Source: Acinetobacter sp. C26M (GTDB taxonomy: Bacteria > Pseudomonadota > Gammaproteobacteria > Pseudomonadales > Moraxellaceae). Taken from it: a stretch of DNA of 64,000 bases. The position numbers and the translations under genes were made by a program. The stretch is taken from positions 3,224,001 through 3,288,000 of the forward strand of contig NZ_CP098478.1 in NCBI RefSeq assembly GCF_023702675.1, given 5' to 3'. Each line of letters opens with the position of its first letter. Within the stretch, counting starts at the first letter, position 1. Positions 21,096 through 27,849 of this stretch are shown in pieces. The notes under the pieces are model-generated. The model did not search any database. It was not told the origin of the DNA and saw only the letters and a program-made list of their open reading frames with translations.

Positions 21096-22112
21096 ATGGA
21101 TCCACGTAGTGAAGTTGTCATCAGACAACAAAATTATTTAAATGGGCAAGTTTTACTGATTAATGCCCCAAATGACCAACTCGCCAAAAATTTACCTGAG
21201 CAAGTTCAAGCATCAGTATGGACTTGGAATTATGCTGATCATCAAGGTTTTATCAGCTCTGGAATTCGCTCTCATTTTTCCGTGGAATTCCCACAAGCAC
21301 CGTTTGATCAAGTTGTTATTTTCGTTCCCAAGTCAAAAGAACTCCTCAATTATATTCTGCACGTTGTGGTTAGCCATTTAAAACTTGATCAAAATATTTT
21401 TCTGGTTGGTGAAAAAAAAGGCGGCGTTGAGCGAGCAGCAAAACAATTATTGCAATATGGTAAAACACTGAAACTTGACAGTGCACGTCACTGCCAACTT
21501 TGGCAAATGAAAATTGAAAAAAATGATGAGTTAAAACCACTTGAGCGTTGGTTAAAAACTTATACAGTTCAAATAGATCAAGAACAGTTAAATATCTGTG
21601 CCTTGCCTGGTGTATTTAGTCAAGATCATTTAGATGTCGGAACAGCCGTATTAGTCCCTTACCTTAGTCAAGTAAAATCAGGTAAGATTGCCGACTTTGG
21701 TTGTGGTGCTGGAATTATTAGTGCTTATTTAGCCAAGCTAAATCCAAACCAGCAGATTTTTGCACTTGATGTTGATGCATTTGCATTACGATCAACTGAA
21801 TTGACTTTTCAGAAAAATAATCTGAATCTCGATCAGTTAAATCTACTACCTGTAACAGGTTTTGTAGATGCGCCCAAAGATTTGGATGCAATCGTAAGCA
21901 ATCCGCCTTTTCATCAGGGGATTCAGACCAATTACGATGCAAGTGAAGAACTTTGCCAACGCGCTAAACAACATCTTAAAAGCTCAGGTGAGTTATGGAT
22001 CGTGGCAAATCGTTTTCTGAATTACCCTCCACTCATTGAACAGAGTTTTGGTCAATGTCTGGTCAAGGCAGATCAACAAGGATTCAAGGTTTTATATGCC
22101 TGTGCAAAATAA
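21096..22112 (+). CDS. rsmC: RsmC, 16S rRNA (guanine1207-N2)-methyltransferase
   Basis: 338 residues, two tandem methyltransferase-like domains as in RsmC. The C-terminal catalytic half has the SAM site [19 protein letters not shown] at ~200-218 and the target-base motif [10 protein letters not shown]. The N-terminal half is a degenerate copy without those motifs, as expected for this family. The enzyme methylates G1207 in the 30S subunit. It is followed after 18 bp by the LysP-like permease on the same strand. Confidence 0.93.
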
Positions 22113-22130
22113 ACATTTTAAGGAATTTTT

Positions 22131-23588
22131 ATGAGCGATACATCTGCTCCTCAACACCTTCAGCGCAAGCTCGGGGCTCGACACCTGAACATGATTGCGA
22201 TCGGTGGATCGATCGGCACAGGCTTATTCCTTGCTTCAGGTTCTACCATTGCTAACGCAGGCCCTGGGGGTGCGTTACTGGCATATGCTTTAATCGGTAT
22301 CATGATTTATTTCTTGATGACCAGCTTAGGTGAATTAGCAACGCATAATCCAACATCGGGTGCCTTCTTTACCTATGGTAGCCGCTATGTCGAAGATGGT
22401 TTTGGTTTCGCCTTAGGTTGGAACTACTGGTATAACTGGGCCATTACAGTTGCCTTTGAATTGGTTGCAGTCCAATTCATCATGAAATTCTGGTTCCCAG
22501 ATATCCCTGGGTTTTACTGGAGCGCAATCTTCCTTGCCATTATTTTTGCAATTAACGCTTTAACAGTAAAAGGTTTTGGCGAAAGTGAATTCTTATTCTC
22601 TTTGATCAAAGTAATTGCCATTATTGTCTTTATTGTGATTGGTATCTGGATGATTTTTAAAATCATGATGACGCCTAATGTATCAGTATTCCAACACTGG
22701 ACTTATAAAGATGCACCTTTTGTCGGCGGTTTTCAGGCACTGATTGGTGTAGCCATGATTGCTGGATTCTCATTCCAAGGCACAGAGATGGTTGGTGTTG
22801 CTGCTGGCGAGTCAAAAGATCCTAAAAAGACCATTCCACTAGCGATTAAGCAAATTTTCTGGCGCATTTTACTGTTCTATATCTTGTGTATCTTCATCAT
22901 TGGCACACTGGTTAGTTATGATGATCCACTGTTATTAAAAGCAGCGCAAAGTGAAGATATCGCGCTATCCCCTTTCACACTATTGTATGAAAAAGCTGGT
23001 TTTGCCTTTGCTGCAAGTTTGATGAATGCGGTTATTCTCAGTGCAATTTTATCTGCGGGCAACTCAGGCATGTACTCTTCTACCCGTATGTTATTTGATA
23101 TGGCTAGAGAAGGCCGCGCGCCAAAATGGTTCTCCAAATTGGATGTTCGTGGTGTACCAATGAATGCACTTTATGCAACTACTGCAGTTGCTGCACTGTG
23201 CTTCTTAACCACATTTATTGGCGAGAAACAGGTGTTTAACTGGTTACTCAACATGTCAGGTATGTGTGGTTTCATCGTATGGCTAGGGATTGCGATTTCA
23301 CATTATCGTTTTCGTAAAGGCTATATCGCTCAAGGTTATAAAGTTGAAGATCTTGCCTATCGTGCCAAATTCTTCCCTTTTGCACCTTGGTTTGCATTCA
23401 TCTTATGTTCGATCATTATTCTAGGTCAGAACTATCAAGCACTATTAGGTGGCAAAATTGATTGGTTAGGCTTAATTTCTACCTATATCAGTATTCCACT
23501 CTTCTTAGCCATTTGGTTAGGTTATAAATGGAAACACAAGACCAAACTAATTGCTTATAAAGACATGAACGTGAAAGAAGGCGAATAA
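22131..23588 (+). CDS. lysP: LysP-like amino-acid permease (APC family)
   Basis: 485 residues, 12 predicted membrane helices. The first motif, KLGARHLNMIAIGGSIGTGL, and later GSRYVEDGFGFALGWNYWYN (in part) closely match E. coli lysine permease LysP, which I recall well (ELKARHLTMIAIGGSIGTGL and GFGFALGWNYWYNWA). FSFQGTEMVGVAAGESKDP is the conserved APC loop after helix 6. It imports an amino acid with protons across the inner membrane; lysine is the most likely substrate. The start has AAGGAA seven bases upstream. No terminator was seen before the rtcB leader promoter. Confidence 0.82.
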   Translation: MSDTSAPQHLQRKLGARHLNMIAIGGSIGTGLFLASGSTIANAGPGGALLAYALIGIMIYFLMTSLGELATHNPTSGAFFTYGSRYVEDGFGFALGWNYWYNWAITVAFELVAVQFIMKFWFPDIPGFYWSAIFLAIIFAINALTVKGFGESEFLFSLIKVIAIIVFIVIGIWMIFKIMMTPNVSVFQHWTYKDAPFVGGFQALIGVAMIAGFSFQGTEMVGVAAGESKDPKKTIPLAIKQIFWRILLFYILCIFIIGTLVSYDDPLLLKAAQSEDIALSPFTLLYEKAGFAFAASLMNAVILSAILSAGNSGMYSSTRMLFDMAREGRAPKWFSKLDVRGVPMNALYATTAVAALCFLTTFIGEKQVFNWLLNMSGMCGFIVWLGIAISHYRFRKGYIAQGYKVEDLAYRAKFFPFAPWFAFILCSIIILGQNYQALLGGKIDWLGLISTYISIPLFLAIWLGYKWKHKTKLIAYKDMNVKEGE

Positions 23589-23601
23589 AATCGCTTTTTA
23601 C

Positions 23602-23629
23602 TTGACCCAAATGAAAATATGAGTAAAAT
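23602..23629 (+). promoter_or_regulatory. Sigma70-type promoter of the rtcB leader transcript
   Basis: TTGACC at 23602-23607, a 16-bp spacer, then TAAAAT at 23624-23629. Five of six bases match consensus in each box. The transcript would start near 23636, about 40 bases before the leader ORF. Confidence 0.65.
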
Positions 23630-23675
23630 CTCGCTCATATTTTCAACGACACTAACGATATAGGAGGACGACAGC

Positions 23676-23705
23676 ATGCCATTAACACTAGGAACAACAC
23701 AGTAA
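23676..23705 (+). CDS. 9-codon leader ORF (MPLTLGTTQ) with consensus Shine-Dalgarno
   Basis: AGGAGG at 23662-23667, eight bases before an ATG, is the best ribosome-binding site in the neighbourhood; the ORF is MPLTLGTTQ then TAA. It ends 20 bases before the 10-bp hairpin. There is no run of one regulatory codon as in classical amino-acid attenuators, though four of nine residues are Thr or Leu. It may act through ribosome position on the leader or may encode nothing functional. Translation is inferred only from the signal. Confidence 0.45.
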   Translation: MPLTLGTTQ

Positions 23706-23725
23706 GATTTGGCACTGTCGACTCA

Positions 23726-23760
23726 CGGACAAGTGTACAAATCTAATGATCACTTGTCCG
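23726..23760 (+). promoter_or_regulatory. 10-bp hairpin in the rtcB leader
   Basis: CGGACAAGTG at 23726-23735 and CACTTGTCCG at 23751-23760 pair perfectly around a 15-nt loop. No T-run follows, so it is a structural element rather than a terminator. Confidence 0.7.
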
Positions 23761-23772
23761 AATGCTCTATTC

Positions 23773-23797
23773 AACCTAGCATTCGCTAGGTTTTTTT
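23773..23797 (+). terminator. Intrinsic terminator before rtcB
   Basis: AACCTAGC / GCTAGGTT with loop ATTC and seven T residues, lying upstream of rtcB in the same orientation. Read-through or an internal promoter is required for rtcB expression from the upstream promoter. Confidence 0.88.
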
Positions 23798-23840
23798 ATG
23801 CCTATTCGGACCAAATATTAAAATATCCCGAGACAAGAAA

Positions 23841-25046
23841 ATGGGCATACAAAAAATACTCAACGCAGATGCACAATATGGCGTTCCAGTGAAAATCTTC
23901 ACTAACGATATTGATAGCGAAAGTATTGAACAACTCAAGAAAATGGCGCAACTACAATTTGTTTATTCACATATTGCAGTAATGCCAGATGTACATGTAG
24001 GCAAAGGTGCAACTGTAGGCAGCGTGATCCCAACCAAACATGCGATTATCCCTGCTGCTGTCGGTGTTGATATCGGCTGTGGTATGAATGCAATTCGGCT
24101 CAACCTCAAAGCATCACAACTTCCAGACAACCTTGCGCCATTACGCCATGCCATTGAACGTAAGGTCCCTGTAGGCTTTGAATTACATAAACAAGTAAAA
24201 GCAAAAGCATCTAGTATTATTCCGCTAGAAAAGCGCTTACAACCCATCATTAAAAAACATCCCGGCTTGGTTCGAATGCTAAGAAAATTTGATGCAACTT
24301 GGCAAAAACAACTGGGAACTTTAGGGGGTGGTAATCACTTCATCGAGCTCTGTCTTGATGAAAATCAGGATGTTTGGGTGATGCTGCATTCTGGCAGTCG
24401 TGGTTTAGGCAATGTCATTGGAACCTATTTCATTGAACTGGCAAAGAAAGAAGCGCAACACCGTTTTGGCCATGTTCCTGACAAGGATTTGAGTTACTTT
24501 GCAGAAGGCTCAAATAGTTTTAGCGACTATGTTGAAGCGGTTGAATGGGCACAGGAATATGCTTTCGAAAATCGACGCGAAATGATGCGTCTTATTTTAG
24601 AGGCGATTCGCCCGCTTCTACCGCCTTTTCAAATGACCAAAGAAGCGATTAACTGCCACCACAACTATATAAGTCGAGAAACTCACTATGGCGAAGAGCT
24701 GCTAATTACACGTAAAGGAGCCATTCGGGCAGGGTTCGATGAATTAGGCATCATCCCGGGTTCAATGGGAGCACGCTCCTATATTGTTAAAGGTAAGGCT
24801 GACCCTGAATCATTCTGCTCATGTTCCCATGGTGCAGGGCGAAAAATGAGCCGCAGTAAAGCGAAGCTGCTGTTTAACCAAGATGACTTGATTCAACAAA
24901 CTCAAGGCATCGAATGCAGAAAAGACAGTGCGGTAATTGATGAAATTCCGGCTGCTTACAAAGATATTGATCAAGTTATGGCAAACCAATCCGACTTGAT
25001 TGAAATCGTGCATACTCTCAAACAAGTTTTATGTATCAAAGGATAA
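23841..25046 (+). CDS. rtcB: RtcB, RNA-splicing ligase (3'-phosphate/5'-OH)
   Basis: 401 residues, very close in pattern to E. coli RtcB (408). Motifs: HIAVMPDVHVGKGATVGSVI, the metal-binding cysteine C80 in VGVDIGCGMNA, LGGGNHFIEL at 161-170, LHSGSRGLGN at 182-191, and SFCSCSHGAGRKMSR, in which H330 is the histidine expected to carry GMP. It joins 2',3'-cyclic phosphate or 3'-phosphate RNA ends to 5'-OH ends using GTP and Mn2+. No rtcA or rtcR is nearby, unlike E. coli. It is preceded by the leader RNA described above and followed after 4 bp by a small basic protein gene. Confidence 0.96.
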   Translation: MGIQKILNADAQYGVPVKIFTNDIDSESIEQLKKMAQLQFVYSHIAVMPDVHVGKGATVGSVIPTKHAIIPAAVGVDIGCGMNAIRLNLKASQLPDNLAPLRHAIERKVPVGFELHKQVKAKASSIIPLEKRLQPIIKKHPGLVRMLRKFDATWQKQLGTLGGGNHFIELCLDENQDVWVMLHSGSRGLGNVIGTYFIELAKKEAQHRFGHVPDKDLSYFAEGSNSFSDYVEAVEWAQEYAFENRREMMRLILEAIRPLLPPFQMTKEAINCHHNYISRETHYGEELLITRKGAIRAGFDELGIIPGSMGARSYIVKGKADPESFCSCSHGAGRKMSRSKAKLLFNQDDLIQQTQGIECRKDSAVIDEIPAAYKDIDQVMANQSDLIEIVHTLKQVLCIKG

Positions 25047-25050
25047 TCAG

Positions 25051-25209
25051 ATGAAACTCAAACAAATGCCAAAAATTAAAGTCCGTAACCCCGTAGCGCT
25101 TTCGCCTTTATTACACAAAGGTGGAGTTCATGAGACTGAGAAACCTAGAGCACAACATCGTCGTGAAAGACAAAATACCAAGCAGCAGTTAAAAAAAGAG
25201 GTATGGTAA
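25051..25209 (+). CDS. Small basic protein co-transcribed with rtcB
   Basis: 52 residues, starting MKLKQMPKIKVRNPVALSPL, with a Shine-Dalgarno-like AAAGGA inside the end of rtcB and only 4 bp after its stop. It is strongly basic (many Lys/Arg) with a central LLHKGGVHE motif and a charged C-terminal helix; there is no signal peptide or membrane segment. Tight coupling suggests translation with rtcB and a possible RNA- or ribosome-related role. I do not recognise a named family, so function is open. Confidence 0.75.
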   Translation: MKLKQMPKIKVRNPVALSPLLHKGGVHETEKPRAQHRRERQNTKQQLKKEVW

Positions 25210-25264
25210 ATAATTAATCATTATTGAAATATCTTAAAACCATTAAATAAAAAGGAGAATCTCA

Positions 25265-25348
25265 ATGTTTTATCACTTAGCCTCCCCATATAAAAAAAGC
25301 GACTCTGACGAGTCGCTTTTTTTTCAGTTCATAAACTCAAATTATTGA
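25265..25348 (+). CDS. Possible 27-codon ORF on a strong ribosome-binding site
   Basis: AAGGAGA seven bases before an ATG opens [16 protein letters not shown]..., which reads through the terminator stem at 25292-25324 and ends inside the 3' end of the convergent ompA. The initiation signal is good but the coding part is made mostly of terminator sequence, so it may be a leader or decoy. Low confidence. Confidence 0.25.
25292..25324. terminator. Terminator of the first ompA copy (also faces rtcB)
   Basis: Stem GCGACTC / GAGTCGC, loop TGAC, flanked by A7 and T8. It is the same element as that after the second ompA copy (26764-26794). Confidence 0.9.
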
Positions 25349-26370
25349 GCTTGTTGACCTGGTTGTACAAGAACAGTACGGCTACCAGAAATCGCAGCGA
25401 ATACGCGACGGTTCATAGCACGACCTTCTTTAGTTTTGTTGTCAGCAATCGGTTGATCCCAAGCGAAACCTTGAGTTGTCAAACGAGTTGCATTTACGTT
25501 GTATTCATTTACAAGTGCAGACTTAACAGAGTTAGCACGCGCTAAAGATAAACGTTCGTTTAACTTACGTGGACCAGTGTTATCTGTGTGACCTTCAATA
25601 CGAGCAGTCGCATTCGGGAACTCAGCTAACTTCTCTGCAACCTTAGCAATTTCAGACTTGTACTGTGGTTTGATATCAGACTTGTTCGTATCAAAGAATA
25701 CGCGAAGTTCCATGTTAAGGTCTTCAGTCAACTCTTGTGGCTGTGGAGCAACTGGAGTTGGTTCAACTGGAGCAACTTCAACTACTGGAGCAGCTGGTTT
25801 CAAGTGACCACCAAGAACTACGTTTAAGCCAGCAAGTGCTGTATAGTTCCAGAACTTCTCATCAAAATGATAAGTACCACGTGCTTCTGTACGAAGAGAT
25901 AAAGCATCGTTTAAACGCCAGAATACACCACCACCAGCATTTGCTAATGTACCTTCTTGCTTACCACCATAAATATCATCACCTTCGTATTTGTAGTGAC
26001 CCGCACCAGCTAACACATAAGGTTTGATTTTGCTGTCATAGTTTTTAGTGATCAAATCAGACGTTACATAAGCATTAGCAGCAATATTACGACCTTTATA
26101 GTCATTGTTAGTACTGGTATCGCCTTTGATTTGGCTGTATTCAACCTCAGCACCTAACCAAGGTGTGATTTCTACGCCAAGCGCAGCACCAACGAATAAA
26201 TCATCTTCAAGTTCTGCACCTGGAGTTAACTGACCTTTATCGCCACGGTTGTTATGTTCAGTATCGAACATTGTATAACCAAGCATTAACGGAGTTACTG
26301 TTACGCCTGCGTTCGCAGCAGCTAAAGGAGCAGCAACAAGCATAGCAAGTGCAATACGACTCAATTTCAT
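25342..26370 (-). CDS. ompA: OmpA-type outer-membrane protein, copy 1
   Basis: 342 residues from ATG 26368-26370, which has GGAGGAT upstream and begins a signal peptide ([21 protein letters not shown]). An eight-strand OmpA barrel (~22-195) is followed by a Pro/Val linker ([18 protein letters not shown]) and a C-terminal peptidoglycan-binding OmpA domain with [13 protein letters not shown] and [20 protein letters not shown] (in part). This is the Omp38/OmpA architecture of Acinetobacter: a slow porin and cell-wall anchor. It is a tandem paralogue of the gene at 26809; the C-terminal halves are nearly identical and the extracellular loops differ. A longer frame to 26463 adds only promoter sequence. 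Confidence 0.95.
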
Positions 26371-26477
26371 GGATATCCTCCAAAAACAAAAAATTGTTTG
26401 TTCTCTAAATTCTAATAGCTTTTGAATACTGAGAAATAGTCTTATTGTATCTTTTTCAGTCATTCACTTTATGTAAA

Positions 26478-26808: not shown

Positions 26809-27849
26809 TTATTTAGCTTGACCTGGTTGTACAAGAACAGTACGGCTACCAGAGATCGCAGCGAATACGCGACGGTTCATAGCACGACCTTCTTTAGTTT
26901 TGTTGTCAGCAATCGGTTGATCCCAAGCAAAACCTTGAGTTGTCAAACGAGTTGCATTCACGTTGTATTCATTTACAAGTGCAGACTTAACAGAGTTAGC
27001 ACGCGCTAAAGATAAACGTTCGTTTAACTTACGTGGACCAGTGTTATCTGTGTGACCTTCAATACGAGCAGTCGCATTCGGGTATTCAGCTAACTTCTCT
27101 GCAACTTTAGCAATTTCAGACTTGTACTGTGGTTTGATGTCAGACTTGTTCGTATCAAAGAATACGCGAAGTTCCATGTTAAGGTCTTCAGTCAACTCTT
27201 GTGGCTGTGGAGCAACTGGAGTTGGCTCAACTGGAGCAACTTCAACTACTGCAGCAGCTGGTTTCAAGTGACCACCAAGAACTACGTTTAAGCCAGCAAG
27301 TGCTGTATAGTTCCAGAAGTCTTCATCGATGTTATATGTACCACGAGCTTCAGTACGAAGAGATAAAGCATCGTTTAAGCGCCAGAAAGCACCGAAACCA
27401 GCATTACCTAAAGTACCTTCTTCTTTATTACCACGGGTACCGCGGTTTACATCATCAAATGTATATTTGTAGTGACCAGCACCTAATAATACATATGGCT
27501 TGATTTTGCTGTCATAGTTTTTAGTGATCAAATCAGAAGTAACGTAGAAGTTACCGTTGATTTGTTGTTGCTTGTATTCAGCATTTGCAGCTGCAGCATC
27601 AACATCACCTTTAACTTGGTTATATTCAGCTTCGAAACCTAACCATGGGGTTAATTCGATACCTAATGCAGCACCAACAAATAAATCGTCCTGAAGCTCA
27701 GGACCATTTGTTAAATGCTTATCGCCATTATTATGTTTAGTGTCTTGGAATGTGTAACCAAGCATTAACGGAGTTACTGTTACGCCCGCATTCGCAGCAG
27801 CTAAAGGAGCAGCAACAAGCATAGCAAGTGCAATACGACTCAATTTCAT
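26809..27849 (-). CDS. ompA: OmpA-type outer-membrane protein, copy 2
   Basis: 346 residues, the same signal peptide and domain plan as copy 1: barrel, [14 protein letters not shown] linker, and peptidoglycan-binding domain ending [11 protein letters not shown]. It differs from copy 1 mainly in barrel loops (for example an insertion with [16 protein letters not shown] and [11 protein letters not shown]). The ribosome-binding site GGAGGAT is the same. Because most Acinetobacter species that I know carry one gene of this type, the pair looks like a recent local duplication with diverging surface loops. Which copy is the functional equivalent of the single ompA is not decidable here. Confidence 0.95.

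Follow-up and report, generated by a model that had tools for sequence, protein, structure and literature searches.

The element ahead of the RNA ligase gene rtcB in Acinetobacter sp. C26M is AbsR28 (RF02606), a small RNA already known from this genus, and it is probably a ribosome-controlled transcription attenuator of rtcB, with AbsR28 as the terminated product. The window analyzed here is a stretch of 64,000 nucleotides of this genome, in which positions 23637-23814 match the Rfam model of AbsR28 with 105.7 bits (E 3.9e-23; curated cut-off 50). Identity with AbsR28 is given by this covariance-model score and by the position between the lysine permease gene and rtcB; in A. baumannii, the AbsR28 gene is described as lying between the lysine permease gene and A1S_2839, and the RNA was detected by Northern blot and RACE at ∼180 nt, at an almost equal level across the growth phases tested (PMC3976366, in the passages available). 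A first-pass annotation, made from the letters of the DNA, had suggested that the leader may be either an attenuator coupling rtcB to translation or RNA damage, or an independent small RNA of ∼160 nt processed by RtcB, and knew no description of such an arrangement. Coupling to translation is well supported, since helices that exclude each other covary, and it agrees with published reports, as far as they go, that translation inhibitors induce rtcB. The small RNA is real as well, but as AbsR28 it already has a published description, and nothing was found to support processing by RtcB.

All features of the leader lie on the forward strand. A sigma70-type promoter (23602-23629), with TTGACC at 23602-23607, a 16-nt spacer, and TAAAAT at 23624-23629, is the sole promoter-like site that a consensus scan lists on this strand between 23500 and 23841. 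With transcription starting at 23637, as set by the first position of the RF02606 match, the match and folding together suggest a leader RNA that extends to the T-run of a terminator (23637-23798). Segment 1 (23662-23684) contains the Shine-Dalgarno sequence AGGAGG (SD; 23662-23667), the start codon and the first codons of a mini-ORF of nine codons, ATG to TAA (MPLTLGTTQ; 23676-23705), which starts 165 bp upstream of rtcB. Segment 2 (23706-23724), the arm following the stop codon, can pair either with segment 1, forming a hairpin (H1) in which the SD and start codon are hidden, or with segment 3 (23726-23743), which comprises the 5' arm and proximal loop of a second hairpin (H2). The stem of H2 is formed by CGGACAAGTG (23726-23735) and CACTTGTCCG (23751-23760), with a loop of 15 nt. 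Segment 4 (23751-23765) consists of the 3' arm of H2 and GAATGC, and has segment 3, segment 5, and element D as possible partners. Segment 5 (23779-23785), the GCATTCG in the 5' arm and loop of the terminator, either joins the terminator or pairs with CGAATGC in the proposed antiterminator. The intrinsic terminator (5:6; 23773-23797) has an 8-bp stem (23773-23792) and T7 (23791-23797), and is followed by element D (ATTCGGAC; 23804-23811), which is complementary to segment 4 and lies in the 5'UTR of rtcB. The presumably controlled gene, rtcB (23841-25046), encodes an RtcB-family RNA ligase of 401 aa (Pfam RtcB, 422.6 bits), and a small gene of 52 aa sits just 3' of it (25051-25209). From the terminator to rtcB (23798-23841), the consensus scan lists no forward-strand promoter-like site. 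The promoter, the AGGAGG with its nine-codon ORF, the 10-bp stem with 15-nt loop, and the 8-bp terminator with T7 are all found where the first-pass annotation had placed them; it had overlooked the pairing of the post-stop segment with the SD and start, the alternative helices, and the element beyond the terminator.

Both the Rfam model (to 23814) and the published length of 180 nt run past the T-run into element D, and the 3' end of AbsR28 RNA may differ from the T-run proposed here.

Promoter-like and terminator-like sites alone are not above chance in this region (from 22000 to 26000, 5 promoters vs. 9.9 expected, and 3 terminators vs. 3.8). Above chance are the fold energy of the leader (z = -5.85, with 0 of 200 shuffles equally stable), the Rfam match, and the conservation of the leader across genomes, where an upstream promoter-like site of at least 9/12 occurs in 81 of 82 leaders, compared with 25 of 82 once that DNA is shuffled (a single mononucleotide shuffle). 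A chance origin of the features is rejected on the basis of the Rfam match, the fold energy, the conservation of the ORF, and the covariation of the helices.

We propose that the leader would be transcribed from its own promoter and that, with ribosomes absent or translating the mini-ORF normally, helices 1:2, 3:4 (H2), and 5:6 (the terminator) would form, yielding AbsR28 only. A ribosome that stalls at the start codon or the codons right after it would cover segment 1; segment 2, just past the stop codon, would then pair with segment 3, and segment 4 would be freed to pair with the 5' arm of the terminator (4:5), allowing RNA polymerase to go on through rtcB and its small downstream neighbor. 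The mini-ORF would serve to position a ribosome, with the sequence of its peptide hardly mattering. Comparison of leaders argues for the conservation of the ORF, for helices 1:2, 2:3, 3:4, and 5:6, for the complementarity 4:D, and for the linkage to rtcB. Three steps are inferred: that stalling is the trigger, that the invariant helix 4:5 antiterminates, and that rtcB mRNA arises by read-through.

The mini-ORF was examined in 82 leaders (81 true loci and the window), with ORFs of 5-14 codons accepted. The loci derive from 82 regions around Rfam matches (L001-L082), of which L081 is a false match and was dropped from the ORF and helix tests; further weak, partial matches (L083-L090) lie outside the ORF analysis. 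An initial pattern scan located an SD and a short ATG-initiated ORF in 80 of the 82 loci, missing the false match and L053, which has a GTG start. The comparison across Acinetobacter that the first-pass annotation had recommended finds the ORF, SD-led and 7-10 codons long, in 82 of 82 leaders, along with the promoter-like site noted above and stems that covary. The ORF has nine codons in 70 leaders, ten in 8, eight in 2, and seven in 2; 66 leaders have AGGAGG as the SD, and 16 have AGGAG followed by another base; the start is ATG in 81 and GTG in 1; and the stop is TAA in 74, TGA in 6, and TAG in 2. In frame, all 61 distinct ORFs (which had been selected for 5-14 codons) reach their first stop at codon 7-10, as do only 10 and 7 when read in the two alternative frames, counts that ignore kinship. 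The peptides drift, with 56 different ones among the 82 leaders, and differences between nearest ORFs are distributed 18/25/30 over the three codon positions, with little third-position bias. From this drift and this near-absence of bias, it appears that evolution has kept the start, the stop, and the length, and hardly a peptide. A functional peptide of ∼9 residues, which would make AbsR28 a dual-function RNA, would account for the strong SD and the ORF in every leader and for some excess of synonymous change (17 of 44 single-base codon changes vs. an expected fraction of 0.26), but the number of different peptides, the spread of ORF lengths over Moraxellaceae leaders (7-17 codons), and the small third-position bias make it very unlikely.

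When folded freely, the leader forms H1, H2, and the terminator. If a ribosome occupies the start, the prediction is instead that the segment after the stop codon pairs with the 5' arm and loop of H2, in the window and in several other species among the 25 foldings listed. It was this folding with the start region blocked that brought in helix 2:3; a simpler attenuator comprising only 1:2, 3:4, and the terminator was set aside, since it yields no antiterminated state. The helices appear to form two mutually exclusive sets, 1:2, 3:4, and 5:6 on the one hand and 2:3 and 4:5 on the other.

Covariation was assessed in 41 aligned leaders, using counts of cells changed on both sides, which sequence kinship can inflate without any structure. 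By this measure, helix 2:3 (87.1% of cells paired) has 58 such cells vs. a shuffled mean of 16.7, helix 3:4 has 34 vs. 12.7, the five start-codon-proximal pairs of 1:2 in H1 have 18 vs. 7.4, and the terminator 5:6 (99.7% of cells paired) has 6 vs. 0.5, and no shuffle among 500 reached the observed count for any of these helices; slid registers of 2:3 give 5-11 such cells. Further pair types are also in excess for 2:3 (21 vs. 15.9 in shuffles, 0/500), and are not above shuffles for 3:4 (240/500) or 1:2 (312/500). A tighter tally, of pairs that vary on both sides, does not exceed the shuffles for any of 2:3 (114/500), 3:4 (352/500), and 1:2 (465/500). In the same 41 leaders, 99.3% of the cells of the proposed antiterminator 4:5 (CGAAUGC:GCAUUCG) are paired, with one-sided (wobble) changes only. 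This helix is invariant, showing no covariation and no signal when own and swapped partners are compared (1841 of 2000 permutations as good), and it is its conservation that points to a role.

The latter comparison is independent of any alignment, as the duplex energy of each leader's segment with its own partner is set against that with the partner of another leader. The sample consists of 19 diverse leaders from four genera, 17 of which have a UTR for 4:D. For the 4:5 comparison, 16 representatives had been drawn from the 82 leaders by similarity below 0.85; in the 19, L121 is replaced by L145, whose segment 2 was set manually to begin inside its 17-codon ORF. L045 did not fit the segment pattern and is absent from the duplex tests. 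Outside the 19 are L142-L144 (near-duplicates or lacking a UTR), L146 (decayed), and L148. Own partners are favored for 1:2 (z -6.7), 2:3 (z -7.9), and 3:4 (z -7.6), with 0 of 10000 permutations as good for each, and the controls 1:3, 1:4, 2:4, 1:UTR, 2:UTR, and 3:UTR are null. The distal part of 2:3 likewise gives this signal (0 of 10000 permutations).

Folding of the nascent RNA in 15 of the 16 representatives (L121 is missing) suggests how a ribosome could direct the choice. When segment 3 has emerged, 2:3 has a predicted mean probability of 0.98 with a ribosome on the start vs. 0.20 without; when segment 5 is just out, the averages are 0.56 and 0.00, with 2:3 predicted at 0.00 despite the ribosome in L004, L055, and L060. 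In the complete leader at equilibrium, the terminator is predicted at 0.95-1.00 in every state of these 15 leaders, ribosome or not, and the switch would therefore have to be kinetic.

Segment 4 has a further partner in element D of the rtcB 5'UTR. The element reads ATTCGGAC in the window and GATATTTACC in another genus, where segment 4 is GGTAAATATC. Counted from its start, its distance to rtcB is 30-49 nt in 14 of 17 leaders, and 13, 55, and 103 nt in L050 (where rtcB is a remnant only), L140, and L147, respectively. Own partners are favored for 4:D (z -4.2; 0 of 10000 permutations in the 17 leaders with a UTR), a signal that is marginal in the 14 Acinetobacter leaders alone (138/10000) and becomes clear only when the other genera are added. 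With 200 mononucleotide shuffles of each UTR, no more than 2 equaled D in 62 of 78 leaders; among the 14 representatives, L050, L058, and L080 exceeded this limit. In L055, L059, and L121, insertions of ∼200 bases split the leader from rtcB, and D stays beside rtcB; no D is seen by eye in L053, L060, L079, or L082, where rtcB was not found in the flank. The pairing may lock the read-through form, or AbsR28 may act through it in trans on leaked rtcB mRNA.

The leader is tied to this rtcB across the genus. In 175 Acinetobacter genomes, with rtcB called at 80% identity or more and the leader called by our own covariance model, both are present in 78, the leader alone in 7, and neither in 90, so that the leader is present in 78 of 78 genomes with this rtcB (Fisher value 5e-42, overstated by genome kinship). 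The 85 leader genomes are 89 model matches minus four judged, after reading, to be terminators only (G075, G156, G018, and G100), and the 78 include G120, whose rtcB is in two pieces. Two of the seven leader-only genomes keep remnants of rtcB (G038 and G157), and rtcB or a piece of it is in the flank of 77 of the 82 loci L001-L082. The leader of G148, with a 17-codon ORF, was missed by Rfam and recognized by eye. Among 299 genomes of the family, the model also identifies the leader in 8 genomes of three other Moraxellaceae genera, with rtcB following it in 6 of the 8.

AbsR28 has been published as a stand-alone, trans-acting regulator of type VI secretion (T6SS), which pairs with tssM mRNA in a Mn2+-dependent manner and represses T6SS (PMC11796373, as excerpted). 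If it were an independent small RNA of this kind, its place before rtcB would be incidental. The published RACE, Northern, deletion, and gel-shift work, as reported in part, argues for this (PMC3976366; PMC11796373), as does the reported finding that deletion of absR28 left the transcript of A1S_2839, the downstream gene and by position rtcB, unchanged, the removal of promoter and terminator being unspecified in the passages available (PMC11796373). Yet the leader occurs in only 7 of the 97 genomes that lack this rtcB, a plain small RNA would have no obvious use for helix 2:3, and the complementarity to the rtcB 5'UTR is matched by lineage. The predicted tssM-pairing region given in that account, nt 27-55 with mutated bases A27G28G29A30, moreover coincides with segment 1, where the mini-ORF has its SD and start (counted on L001 from the Rfam start). 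We therefore regard an independent small RNA with an incidental position as unlikely, and a trans role of AbsR28 is compatible with its role as a leader. A text search of the same paper finds neither "peptide" nor "open reading frame"; the mini-ORF, the alternative helices, and a link to rtcB are likewise absent from the AbsR28 and rtcB literature as represented, mostly, by passages and abstracts. Mutations in AbsR28 of A. baylyi are reported in a further excerpt (PMC11426457).

Leaders of similar design may occur elsewhere in Pseudomonadales. Upstream DNA was inspected for 20 of the best 23 non-own rtcB matches in Pseudomonadales (57-71% identity; G230, G451, and G515 are not included). In 8 of the 20 (L199, L201, L202, L205, L207, L208, L209, and L214), an SD, an ORF of 10-11 codons, H1, H2, and a terminator are present, with no likeness in sequence to AbsR28 visible by eye, and L203 is similar with a 23-codon ORF; in the other 11, including the three loci of Moraxellaceae genus g9 and the one of genus g11 (L195-L198), such a leader is absent or unclear. 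With the start blocked, the 2:3 and 4:5 state is predicted in L202 and L205, and is not predicted in L207 and L208. None of 12 sources (L121, L140, L141, L147, and these 8) matches Rfam at the gathering score. Ten more distant RtcB-family genes (∼32-38% identity for those listed here) include 8 with an SD-led ORF of 12-22 codons upstream, a count that has no chance control (L215-L217 and L219-L223; 13 codons in L222 and L223). In L220 and L221, the SD-led ORFs are not directly before the RtcB-family gene.

The genome encodes a second rtcB (G000:C1:1745566), 57% identical to and ∼1.5 Mb from that of the window. RtcR, the regulator that the first-pass annotation did not see, is indeed missing from the window and is present in the genome, its sole match (G000:C1:1748170) lying one gene from the second rtcB. 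Upstream of the latter (L122, G000:C1:1743500-1749500; L129) is a TTGGCAC...TGC stretch, which we take to resemble a sigma54 promoter. It would appear that the two rtcB genes of this genome are controlled differently. Control of the window's rtcB by RtcR was considered and rejected, as RtcR is near the other copy and the promoter here is sigma70-like; the RtcR/sigma54 rtc system likewise controls an rtcB, but differs in these two respects, the gene in the window having no adjacent RtcR.

Published expression data, available in excerpts, are largely consistent with attenuation. In RNA-seq data (GSE131451) taken after 30 min of tigecycline, rtcB of A. baumannii and the gene behind it, AB57_3343, are reported as the most induced genes, rising together 252-fold, for which the authors offer a toxin-antitoxin or tRNA-blockage explanation (PMC7652931). 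Read-through of the AbsR28 terminator would be the simplest source of this induced rtcB mRNA. Half-MIC minocycline is reported to raise rtcB 2.6-fold (PMC9741440), RtcB is listed at 0.40, i.e., not raised, in the table for a trmB mutant (PMC10653896), and rtcB_2, which may be either of the two rtcB genes, is described as desiccation-induced in Acinetobacter Tol 5 (PMC13130816). A leader that switches on a ligand or ion such as Mn2+, instead of on ribosomes, could draw on the in vitro binding of Mn2+ by AbsR28 (KD ∼6 μM, with a structural change reported in the excerpted account; PMC11796373). Such a switch would leave unexplained an SD-led ORF with its start in the switching helix and its stop abutting segment 2, and the induction published, in the passages seen, came with ribosome inhibitors (PMC7652931; PMC9741440); we consider it highly improbable. 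Attenuation by ribosomes is itself weakened by the reported absence of an effect of absR28 deletion on A1S_2839, by the only 2.6-fold response to minocycline, by the trmB value, and by the 11 of 20 Pseudomonadales loci in which the leader is absent or unclear.

The closest known system is the PA5471.1-armZ attenuator of Pseudomonas aeruginosa. There, too, an RtcB-like gene is described behind a short leader ORF, a constitutive promoter, and a terminator, and a stalled ribosome alters the RNA structure and lets transcription through, so that ribosome-targeting drugs induce the gene (PMC12057347; PMC13041342, both in excerpt). ArmZ is described as a MexZ anti-repressor, and is called RtcB-like in one of these accounts (PMC12057347). 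The PA5471.1 leader peptide reportedly has 13 residues and begins ∼250 bp upstream, compared with nine codons and 165 bp here, and its codons 3-4 affect the response in one mutant, whereas the codons of the rtcB leader drift. The likeness of the two leaders is one of architecture. In the DUF1127 uORF attenuator of Sinorhizobium, as described in part, translation of a uORF likewise controls termination, and the element is tetracycline-induced and proposed as a reporter of ribosome availability; it differs in gene, element, and logic, which involves C-rich uORF codons.

A broader conjecture, which we hold to be about evenly balanced between right and wrong, is that a stall-sensing attenuator of one design, with free turnover of its sequence, controls the RtcB RNA ligases of many Pseudomonadales, among which armZ would be a divergent case. 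RNA repair would then have the stalled ribosome as its physiological trigger, with AbsR28 as a by-product and with segment 4 as a second, RNA-level grip of AbsR28 on rtcB mRNA via element D. The attenuator proposed for the window, if real, would account for the place of rtcB at the head of the tigecycline-induced genes published for A. baumannii, and would provide a handle on the purpose of bacterial RtcB, since stalled ribosomes would activate this gene independently of the RtcR-near copy. A virulence-related small RNA would be recast as a leader RNA, and its deletion mutants would need to be re-read for effects on rtcB.

The small gene behind rtcB encodes a basic protein and has no Pfam or NCBIfam match. 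By eye, a similar start (MKLK...) persists behind the leader in L079, L082, L144, and L148, where rtcB is missing. Further downstream, on the minus strand, two tandem and very similar genes (25342-26463 and 26809-27849) resemble, by eye, those for OmpA-like outer membrane proteins.
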